This document shows positions 33,883-36,232 of a stretch of DNA of 64,000 bases, in pieces. Position 1 is the stretch's first letter. Every line of letters begins with the position of its first letter. Made by a program: the position numbers and the translations under genes. The stretch lies in NCBI GenBank assembly GCA_902521805.1, contig CABYTL010000001.1, forward strand, positions 123,167 through 187,166. Direction: 5' to 3'. The notes under the pieces were generated by a model. It saw nothing but the letters and a program-made list of their open reading frames with translations. It ran no database searches and was not told the DNA's origin. This DNA is from an uncultured Pelagibacteraceae bacterium. GTDB lineage: Bacteria > Pseudomonadota > Alphaproteobacteria > Pelagibacterales > Pelagibacteraceae.

Positions 33883-33905
33883 AAAAAAAGCCCTAAAATA
33901 GGGCT
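33883..33905 (-). terminator. intrinsic terminator of the MGMT gene
   Basis: On the minus strand AGCCCTA, a TTT loop and TAGGGCT form a perfect seven-base GC-containing stem followed by six T. It overlaps the stop codon of the MGMT gene. This is the clearest rho-independent terminator in the window. Confidence 0.75.
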
Positions 33906-34173
33906 AAATCGCTACCTTTTCAGATCTAAGTAATTTGACCTTTTGTTTAATTCCACCTCTCCCAGAGTAACCTCCAAGACCTCCGTCAGATCTAATCACT
34001 CTATGACAAGGTATTTTTGGGGCATATGGGTTTTTAGCACAAGCATTAGCCACAGCACGAGCTGATTTAGGGCTTTTGATGCCAATAGCCACCTGTTTAT
34101 AAGTTTTTACCTTACCTTTTGGTATTGTTTTAAGGTATTTCCAGACTTTTAATTGAAATTTTGTTCCCTGCAC
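33904..34173 (-). CDS. minimal methylated-DNA--protein-cysteine methyltransferase (MGMT family)
   Basis: MGMT proteins remove alkyl groups from O6 of guanine. The 89-residue protein, starting at GTG, consists only of the DNA-binding/active-site domain: KYLKTIPKGKVKTYKQVA, the Arg finger in SARAVANACAKNP, and the acceptor Cys in IPCHRVIRSDGGLGGYSG. The normal N-terminal domain is missing. Because Cys is kept, it is not an alkyltransferase-like (Trp) protein by sequence, though its size is similar. It follows a small membrane protein gene by six bases. Confidence 0.82.
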   Translation of the reverse strand: MQGTKFQLKVWKYLKTIPKGKVKTYKQVAIGIKSPKSARAVANACAKNPYAPKIPCHRVIRSDGGLGGYSGRGGIKQKVKLLRSEKVAI

Positions 34174-34179
34174 TGATTT

Positions 34180-34356
34180 TTATCGTGGAATTAATAAAAT
34201 TATGTAACTTACAAAGAAAATAATAGCCATTATAGAAAGAAATATTGTATTGAAGCTCTTTCCAGTGTTTCTGTATTGAATAAAAGTTAATATAACGAAA
34301 CCAATCGAACTAATTAAAAACCATACTGCAGGAATTTCTCCATCAATTGAACCCAT
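34180..34356 (-). CDS. small two-helix membrane protein of unknown function, 58 residues
   Basis: ATG at 34354-34356 (minus strand) opens a 58-codon frame ending TAA at 34180. The product has two hydrophobic segments, about 9-23 (VWFLISSIGFVILTF) and 39-57 (FLSIMAIIFFVSYIILLI), joined by a polar loop QYRNTGKSFN. No family is recognised. It is probably co-transcribed with the MGMT gene and diverges from the recombinase. Confidence 0.6.
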   Translation of the reverse strand: MGSIDGEIPAVWFLISSIGFVILTFIQYRNTGKSFNTIFLSIMAIIFFVSYIILLIPR

Positions 34357-34375
34357 AATTTTTTAATTTAAACTA

Positions 34376-34404
34376 TTGACATTAAAAATCACCTATAATA
34401 TAAC
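34376..34404 (+). promoter_or_regulatory. promoter of the tyrosine recombinase gene
   Basis: A consensus -35 TTGACA (34376-34381) and TATAAC (34399-34404) are 17 bases apart. The last two bases of the -10 overlap the left arm of the inverted repeat at 34403-34431, so a protein bound there would block transcription. Confidence 0.7.
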
Positions 34405-34431
34405 TTCCGATAATTAATGGTTATCGGAAGT
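34403..34431. repeat. perfect 11-7-11 inverted repeat, dif-like candidate recombination site or operator
   Basis: ACTTCCGATAA (34403-34413) and TTATCGGAAGT (34421-34431) are exact inverted copies around TTAATGG. Arm length, the 6-8 base centre and the inner ATAA...TTAT ends are those of tyrosine-recombinase core sites such as dif. It lies between the -10 box and the ATG of a tyrosine recombinase. That it is a crossover site is inference; an operator or mRNA hairpin is also possible. Confidence 0.65.
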
Positions 34432-34435
34432 ATAT

Positions 34436-35342
34436 ATGAATAATTTAATAACTGACGTAAAAAGCTTAGAAATAGAAACTATTAAAAATTTAAAGAATTC
34501 AAAAGCTAATAATACCTTAAGAGCTTATCAATCTGATTTTAGAGATTTTTCAGCTTTCTGTGCAAAAAATGGATTAACTGCAATCCCAACAAAGCCAAAA
34601 ATTATTGCTCTCTACATTACACATCTTTCAAAAACATCAAAATTTAGCACATTAAAAAGAAGAATAGCCTCCATAAGTGTTATTCATAAGTTAAAAGGAC
34701 ATTATCTTGATACTAAACATCCAATAATAATGGAAAATTTACATGGGATTAAAAGAACTTTAGGATCAAGACAAAAAGCAAAAAAAACCATTATTAATCA
34801 ATGATTTAAAATTAATAATTAAAGTAATAAATGAAAAAAAAATTAGAGATAAAGCATTAATTTTAATCGGATTTGCAGGTGGATTCAGAAGGTCTGAATT
34901 AGTAAATATCGATTATGAAGATATTGAATTTGTTCATGAAGGTGTAAAAATTCTAATTAAAAGGTCTAAAACAGATCAATCTGGAGAAGGGATTATCAAG
35001 GCGATCCCCTACTTCGAAAATAAAGAATTCTGCCCTGTATTATCACTTAAAACCTATATCAAAGAAAAATTTTCCTTTAAAAATGTAGGAAAAGTTTTTG
35101 ATATATCAGATAAATCTGTAGCACTTATAATAAAAAAATATGCAGAAAAAGCTGGTTTAGATTCATCTAAATATGCAGGACATAGTTTGAGATCAGGCTT
35201 TGCAACAACAGCAGCAGAATTTGGAGCAGAAGAAAGAAATATAATGGCTATGACAGGTCATAAGACCACTCAAATGGTAAGAAGATATATTCAAGAAGCA
35301 AATTTATTTAAGAATAATGCACTAAATAAAATAAAGATCTAA
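34436..35342 (+). pseudogene. tyrosine recombinase/integrase, split by a one-base poly(A) frameshift
   Basis: Tyrosine recombinases cut and rejoin DNA at specific sites. The first frame (34436 to about 34787) is the N-terminal SAM-like DNA-binding domain (NNTLRAYQSDFRDFSAFC). The second (34788-35342) is the catalytic domain with every key residue: Arg in GGFRRSELVNI, Lys in RSKTDQSGEG, HxxR in GHSLRSGFATT, His in TGHKTTQM and Tyr in VRRYIQ. An eight-A run (34780-34787) puts them out of frame by one base; seven A would restore a protein of about 300 residues. It converges on the GT11 gene with a four-base overlap. Confidence 0.85.
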
Positions 35343-36232
35343 ATAGATATCCATTTATCAGGCCAAAAATCAGAATTATTTGATGGATTTATATTTTTAG
35401 GTCTTATGCATATTTTATTTGGATTATTATTTAACCAAGCACCCCACCAGTGGAAAGGTGTCGGACCAATTATAAAATGTTTGCTATACATAAAAAGATT
35501 AAAATCGTTTAAGGATTTATTTTCTTTATTTTCGATAAAAATATATTTATTGTCGTTAAAGTATTCATTTAAATTTTGAAATTCATTTGACCAGATAAAA
35601 AAAACAGGATTATCAACTTTTTTTTTTAAAAAGGATATGGATCTTTTCACGTAATCTATCGTATTTTTTGTGAATTGATTAGATTTTTCTTGATTTTTAA
35701 TTTTTCCTTCAGAATATCTATTTTGCCTTATACATATTGAAACAGAATTATGTTTTTCTAATAAATTAATATATTTTGTATTTTTAGATAGGTAATCATT
35801 TTTTATAATAAATTCTCTTTTAAGGTCATTTGAGTAATTTAAAAAATATTTCTCACTTTGAAAATACCCTTCTGTAGTTAATATGTCAGAAAATATATGT
35901 TTATTGGAATTTTGATATGAAGTAGTTTTATTTTTATCAGTTTTTTCTAAATAAAAAGATTTATCATTTTTGATTAAATCAAATATTTTTAAAAATTTTC
36001 TTTTAAAATCTTTAGAGTAATTATCAAATTTATAAATATCATCGCATATTGATGCAGAGATATTGAATTTATCTAATTCATAATTTCTTATTTTATTTTT
36101 GACTTTAAAATATCCAGATGTGTTATCTAAGAACAGATCATATCCTAATTCTCTTGATAAAGCATATGCATGTGAATACATAAATAATTGATTTCCAAGA
36201 CCTTCGGCAATTCTGACTATCAATTTTTTCAT
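35339..36232 (-). CDS. glycosyltransferase family 11 (fucosyltransferase-like)
   Basis: GT11 enzymes are mostly alpha-1,2-fucosyltransferases that decorate surface polysaccharide. The 297-residue protein has the N-terminal AEGLGNQLFMYSHAYALSREL motif (quoted as EGLGNQLFMYSHAYAL), TEGYFQSEKYF, and GPTPFHWWGAWL near the end. The usual HxRRGD motif reads CIRQNRYSEG, keeping the first Arg only. It overlaps the next gene by four bases. The family is fairly clear; fucose as donor is inference. Confidence 0.78.
   Translation of the reverse strand: MKKLIVRIAEGLGNQLFMYSHAYALSRELGYDLFLDNTSGYFKVKNKIRNYELDKFNISASICDDIYKFDNYSKDFKRKFLKIFDLIKNDKSFYLEKTDKNKTTSYQNSNKHIFSDILTTEGYFQSEKYFLNYSNDLKREFIIKNDYLSKNTKYINLLEKHNSVSICIRQNRYSEGKIKNQEKSNQFTKNTIDYVKRSISFLKKKVDNPVFFIWSNEFQNLNEYFNDNKYIFIENKENKSLNDFNLFMYSKHFIIGPTPFHWWGAWLNNNPNKICIRPKNINPSNNSDFWPDKWISI

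Follow-up and report, generated by a model that had tools for sequence, protein, structure and literature searches.

A 64-kb stretch of a genome of the SAR11 group (Pelagibacterales), here called the window, raises the question what a perfect inverted repeat, ACTTCCGATAA-TTAATGG-TTATCGGAAGT (34403-34431), does inside the promoter of a tyrosine recombinase gene. The survey of Carnoy and Roten (2009) gives Pelagibacter ubique as a case in which dif/Xer was discarded through genome streamlining (PMC2731167). We propose that the 29-bp repeat is the dif of SAR11 and that the adjacent Cre-like recombinase, acting alone, resolves chromosome dimers at the terminus, and we put the probability of this reading at roughly 0.88. 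It builds directly on the site, its conservation, its position at the switch of GC skew, the scarcity of other recombinases, the Cre-like fold of the modelled protein and the agreement of the arm class with a single protein residue. The published absence of dif/Xer in P. ubique would then come from the way in which it was searched for. In the available excerpts of the literature searched, including PMC2731167, PMC3025954, PMC9765430, PMC5357621, PMC3861242 and PMC6811365, a SAR11 dif is not reported, nor is it in those of PMC10906006, where Pelagibacter is mentioned solely for the crowding of cell and DNA.

In the window, the promoter boxes TTGACA and TATAAC lie upstream of the recombinase gene at a spacing of 17 bases, the last two bases of the -10 box are the first two of the repeat, and four bases separate the repeat from the ATG at 34436 (Table 1). 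All of this stands as the original prediction, made from the letters of the window, had described it: promoter boxes, spacing, perfect 11-7-11 repeat, overlap and an end just before the ATG. The repeat is the sole perfect one with 11-base arms and a centre of six to eight bases in the window. In 60 second-order Markov shuffles the mean number of such repeats was 0.38 (maximum 3), and a separate 60 shuffles gave none with at least four G/C per arm. The repeat is thus far from chance. It is present as a single copy in the 1,016,178-base assembly (83% complete), searched on both strands with up to three mismatches.

Within the genus, the catalytic half of the recombinase was matched in 143 of 201 genomes; two of the matches (G056 and G187) are too weak for orthology, and the remaining ones form two groups, one close and one at 60-70% identity. 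Sites with arms of the type found in the window (class A) were detected at up to two mismatches in 35 of the 201 genomes, where two (G184 and G143) look like chance matches, and the exact site is confined to the close group. The apparent refutation that lies in this scarcity was overturned, since in the other group sister arms (class B) occupy the same position: the first 20 loci retrieved from the 60-70% group all carry, at the same place, ACTANYGATAA-TTAAT(G/T)G-TTATCRATAGT or a form that differs from it in one or two letters.

Conservation was then followed in 103 distinct full-length orthologues from both groups and six further genera (seven genera). One of them (G203) lies at the edge of its retrieved stretch and has the site too; the other 102 were analysed upstream, 95 of them having been reached without using the site. 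An 11-7-11 site precedes the recombinase in all 102 cases (64 of class A, 38 of class B), each with the dif-type layout of arms of about 11 bp, a short centre and inner ATAA/TTAT ends. The original prediction had named a missing or unconserved site upstream of orthologous recombinases as the finding that would speak against it, and no such orthologue was seen among the 102. With the start codons as chosen in our analysis, the gap between site and start is 0-13 bp in 99 orthologues, -1 or -2 in two and 35 bp in one. A -35 box (at least five of six bases matching) begins 25-28 bases upstream of the site in every orthologue, and the -10 hexamer is TATTAC, TATAAC, TATAAT or TATTAT in 68 and another AT-rich hexamer in the rest.

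That the site overlaps the -10 box and, in almost every SAR11 orthologue, stops just short of the start codon would also suit an operator only, at which the recombinase or another regulator controls the promoter while the protein acts elsewhere in the genome. We regard this as improbable, as the asymmetric 7-bp centre, which an operator would not need, is conserved like the arms (TTAATGG in 67 and TTAATTG in 30 of the 102 sites).

Relatives outside SAR11 carry the combination as well. In IMG/VR record L233 the site lies about 400 bp from the gene of a 331-amino-acid relative of the recombinase (36% identity), and a scan with this protein returned 65 loci (L253-L317), each with a title that names a member of the Negativicutes. 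In 27 of these loci the retrieved DNA contains a palindromic GATAA-N7-TTATC site. It lies at most 613 bp before the start of the match in 20 of them; in the other seven, all Veillonella, it is about 2.4 kb from the gene and still conserved, which argues further against an operator. Both arm classes recur, ACTTCCGATAA in most Negativicutes and ACTAATGATAA and its kin in Sporomusa, Propionispira and Pelosinus. Among ten such genomes examined, Veillonella parvula encodes five PF00589 proteins and V. magna encodes two, none of which scores like a canonical XerC or XerD. Sporomusa and Anaerospora have further 297-amino-acid proteins with E-values near 1e-56, so the Cre-like family may not be alone there. 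In the class Alphaproteobacteria 386 genomes were searched and a relative (E up to 1e-20) was found in 25 non-SAR11 ones, and at four loci (L335, L338, L341, L343) a GATAA-N7-TTATC repeat with different outer arms stands 55-181 bp upstream of the gene segment that was matched. The Negativicutes version, Veillonella included, makes the proposed system testable outside SAR11.

The cumulative GC skew of the window has its maximum in the 2-kb bin 34001-36000, and genes lie mostly on the + strand to the left of the site and mostly on the - strand to its right. Three single-contig SAR11 genomes were analysed over 120 contiguous kb each and by sampling along the remainder of the chromosome; their skew maximum lies at a distance from the site of 1.8 kb in G012, 0.6 kb in G203 and 2.8 kb in G211. 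For V. parvula SKV38 the sampled stretches show positive skew throughout on the side before the site and negative skew throughout after it, and the maximum falls within 0.1 kb of the site, which is at 52% of the chromosome. The skew check that accompanied the original prediction thus places the site at the switch in the window and in all four chromosomes. A single site at the replication terminus or skew switch is what is expected of dif, and the position speaks against an operator. The FtsK gamma domain is encoded in 18 of 18 genomes examined, three of them from the sister family f2. In the sampled stretches of the three SAR11 genomes GGGNAGGG points toward the site 7 times and away from it 0 times, and GAGNAGGG 26 and 4 times, counts that are uncorrected for GC skew; this orientation, which resembles that of FtsK-orienting polar sequences (KOPS), is suggestive only.

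The orthologue is the sole tyrosine recombinase (PF00589 protein) in 40 of 46 genomes that have the gene. A first set of 30 genomes (28 with a completeness of 90% or more) includes 26 with the orthologue, which is the sole PF00589 protein in 24; two (G039, G056) carry only another PF00589 protein and two (G033, G037) none. The second set of 39 genomes comprised 20 of family f1 with the orthologue (the sole one in 16), nine that were chosen for lacking it, eight of them without any PF00589 protein and one with an unrelated one, and ten of family f2. Like a conserved core recombinase, the orthologue is present in all eleven single-contig f1 genomes examined. Across the order 255 of 298 genomes gave a match, 38 of which belong to f2 and match only at E-values of 1e-4 to 1e-10. 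All ten f2 genomes have two or three other PF00589 proteins; those of two genomes reach 314-316 bits against the XerD model and 300-314 bits against the XerC model, just below the curated cut-offs. By these scores the sister family f2 keeps a XerC/XerD-like pair (L370-L375) and the SAR11 family has a single, different protein, which therefore marks a replacement or loss within the order.

This distribution also bears on the possibility that the repeat is the attachment site of an integrated element whose integrase gene was kept by chance. The recombinase gene lies near glycosyltransferase genes, a type of region that is variable among SAR11 strains, and tyrosine recombinases of islands are common. 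However, the site is single-copy, occurs in seven genera and in each of the eleven single-contig genomes, and sits at the skew switch, and a second attachment site was not found, all of which makes such an origin very unlikely. Least probable of all is a DNA invertase or cassette switch recombining the site with a second genomic copy, an option the original prediction had raised: despite weak matches of the catalytic half to NCBIfam invertase models, no second copy was found in the own genome at up to three mismatches, and further matches in relatives, with two or three mismatches each, are scattered and no more than about as frequent as those of a reversed-pattern control.

The protein itself falls well below the cut-offs of the XerC, XerD, XerS and XerA models. 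SAR11 recombinases score 65-73 bits with the XerC and XerD models (cut-offs 330-335), and there is usually one PF00589 protein; the values are 49-57 bits for XerS (cut-off 267) and 70-80 bits for archaeal XerA (cut-off 220). Cre is the best profile match in the PDB, over nearly the whole length of the recombinase, and the best fold match of its structural model, at about 20% identity. With two-domain similarity over the full length and the catalytic residues present, the protein can be called Cre-like. As in Cre/loxP of phage P1, symmetric arms would be bound by one protein (in SAR11 the binding is predicted). The SAR11 system differs from it in being chromosomal and vertically inherited and in its 11-7-11 site, where loxP has a 13-8-13 layout. 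With the canonical dif of XerC/XerD the SAR11 site shares the length of about 28 bp, the inner ATAA/TTAT ends, the skew switch and the FtsK gamma domain, but there is one recombinase, the arms are symmetric, the centre has 7 instead of 6 bp and the gene is beside the site.

Further parallels are systems with one recombinase. The pairs difH/XerH (Helicobacter, Campylobacter) and difSL/XerS (streptococci, lactococci) have a site near the gene and the terminus (PMC2731167, PMC5357621), and SAR11 resembles them in having one tyrosine recombinase and a site near both. The original prediction had drawn this comparison for a recombinase that acts at a dif-like site beside its own gene, a view that conservation, skew switch and the match of arm class and residue support. 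The difL/XerL system of Legionellales likewise has a single recombinase, in proteobacteria first believed to be without dif/Xer, with long symmetric arms and use by a mobile element (PMC9765430). However, in L. pneumophila dif is more than 400 kb away from the gene (PMC9765430), whereas the SAR11 site adjoins it.

The two arm classes, TTCC (A) and TAAY (B) and their kin, differ at bases six to eight, and the difference is mirrored in residue 243 of the protein (G211 numbering). This residue is Lys in 77 and Arg in one of 78 class A proteins and Gln in 44 of 44 class B proteins, and the rule holds for all 122 aligned proteins of known site class, from two phyla. It is obeyed at all 27 Negativicutes loci with sites, counting L257 (one arm CTGATAA), and the 38 loci without a nearby site all have Lys. 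HMMER aligns the residue with Arg259 of Cre, which is reported to bond with the C-G pair at position 10 of the loxP half-site (PMC6486577). By our own count this position is the sixth base from the inner edge. An extension of the rule beyond SAR11 and Negativicutes was rejected on three of the other alphaproteobacterial loci (L335-L349, 15 loci, 14 of them in the residue comparison and five without an open frame over the span): L335 and L341 differ in both arms and residue, and L338 breaks the rule. The recombinase would be a compact enzyme that switches naturally between two specificities, at a position whose role in determining the specificity of Cre is known.

Copies of the site occur in phages. 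A degenerate class A pattern was found in 33 IMG/VR contigs and the class B pattern in three; the site-bearing set consists of the IMG/VR contigs L214-L232 and L234-L249 and the pelagiphage isolates L250-L252 and L318-L326. With the exception of L233, the recombinase is not encoded in the retrieved DNA of the site-bearing IMG/VR contigs, a further point against an operator. In ten mapped phage contigs the site stands directly before a small gene that precedes the large terminase gene (terminase visible in nine), and for two of these terminases the nearest named relatives are pelagiphages, including HTVC010P and its kin. Over 35 contigs (273,815 bases) only 43 sites score at least 14, of which 35 are the sites used to find the contigs and 7 are class B sites adjoining a class A site. 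In 11 of 12 isolates the site scores higher than any of 20 shuffled versions of its stretch, with Lederberg marginal (17.4 against 16.9) and HTVC010P weak (13.2 against 5.4); for HTVC028P (439 bp) and the Methylophilales phage Venkman the score was not above the best of 20 shuffles. Two tandem sites are present in HTVC035P, HTVC100P and HTVC106P, and class B and class A stand in tandem in several phages. A blastn search of phage records with a 31-mer of the site gave a best E-value of 0.07, the query being too short for significance alone.

Genomes related to HTVC010P are described as being without an integrase in work on freshwater relatives (PMC6811365). It is an even bet that HTVC010P-type phages borrow the host Cre-like recombinase through dif copies beside the terminase gene, for integration at dif or for genome resolution, and so share the site and specificity switch of the host. 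As lacking an integrase and carrying a copy of the host site, they resemble the integrative mobile elements exploiting Xer (IMEX), which use host Xer at dif. They differ from these in their tailed-phage genes, in the tandem two-class sites of some and in that no integrated copy of an HTVC010P-type prophage was found in 399 genomes. One candidate, the 14.5-kb contig C20 of G178 with the sole match to the large terminase (TerL) in these genomes, was rejected as a phage contig, having two TerL copies in opposite directions. If the idea is true, the commonest phages and the commonest bacteria of the ocean share one recombination site. The phage mimics are a concrete clue to the ways in which pelagiphages that have no integrase might interact with the host chromosome.

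From these data we infer binding, cleavage, dimer resolution, dependence on FtsK and autorepression in the following form. Two monomers of the recombinase would bind the two 11-bp arms, and two sites on a dimeric chromosome would synapse, the partner being the same site on the sister chromosome, as in dif systems. Cleavage at either edge of the 7-bp centre, followed by strand exchange, would then give two monomers, with the asymmetric centre TTAATGG or TTAATTG fixing the direction. The two sites would probably be brought together at the septum by FtsK, whose gamma domain is kept. The left arm begins within the -10 box, so that a bound recombinase would probably repress its own gene as well. 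As a prediction from sequence, the simplest account of the data is a dif/Xer system that works with one Cre-like recombinase and has its dif within the promoter of the recombinase gene. SAR11 would have retained dif/Xer in a one-protein version that searches for XerC, XerD, XerS and dif miss, which would change the view of chromosome segregation in the most abundant bacteria of the sea and mark their terminus.

Several observations weigh against this account. The gene is missing from part of the order: among genomes at least 90% complete 133 of 150 have a match and 17 do not, and of 12 such genomes that were re-examined (G285, G301, G194, G310, G312, G322, G324, G337, G338, G033, G037 and G039, 90-95% complete) ten are without any PF00589 protein and two have only another one, as is also the case in G056. 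The absences may reflect a terminus region lost in binning or in missing contigs, or true loss. The skew in SAR11 is weak, shows local reversals and rises locally for a second time 20-40 kb beyond the site, and 38 of the 65 Negativicutes loci are without a palindromic site within the retrieved DNA. As for the residue rule, L338 combines class A-like arms with Glu, and the tree needs only three class changes, one in SAR11 and two in Negativicutes. At each of them the residue changed in the same direction, and two independent pairs are on well-supported branches, with a significance that is not computable; the tree is of a quick type, warns of meeting long branches and omits seven of the 27 Negativicutes loci with sites. 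Finally, the recombinase copy of the window is frameshifted.

The break lies at an A run and leaves an N-terminal open reading frame and a frame with the catalytic domain, each of which matches tyrosine recombinase families (Table 1). In relatives the gene is intact as a rule, with one frame through the position of the A run, and the frameshift of the window may be real or a sequencing error.

Table 1. Features of the predicted dif site and its recombinase gene, in positions of the window.
Feature	Position	Strand	Basis
-35 box TTGACA of the recombinase promoter	34376..34381	+	sequence; orthologue comparison
-10 box TATAAC, last two bases = first two of the site	34399..34404	+	sequence; orthologue comparison
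Left 11-bp arm ACTTCCGATAA of class A, predicted half-site of the recombinase	34403..34413	+	
Asymmetric 7-bp centre TTAATGG, predicted strand-exchange region	34414..34420	+	orthologue comparison
Right 11-bp arm TTATCGGAAGT, exact inverted repeat of the left one	34421..34431	+	
N-terminal (core-binding) half, 122 amino acids	34436..34804	+	PF02899, E 1.4e-5; frame broken after
A run breaking the reading frame in the window copy	34780..34787	+	relatives have one continuous frame
Catalytic half, second frame, with recognition-switch Lys (SDKSV)	34776..35342	+	PF00589, E 9.1e-21

Read by eye, the - strand of the window at 33900-34180, upstream of the promoter, resembles a methylguanine-DNA methyltransferase in its C-terminal part, with a PCHRVI stretch, and has no full-length frame.
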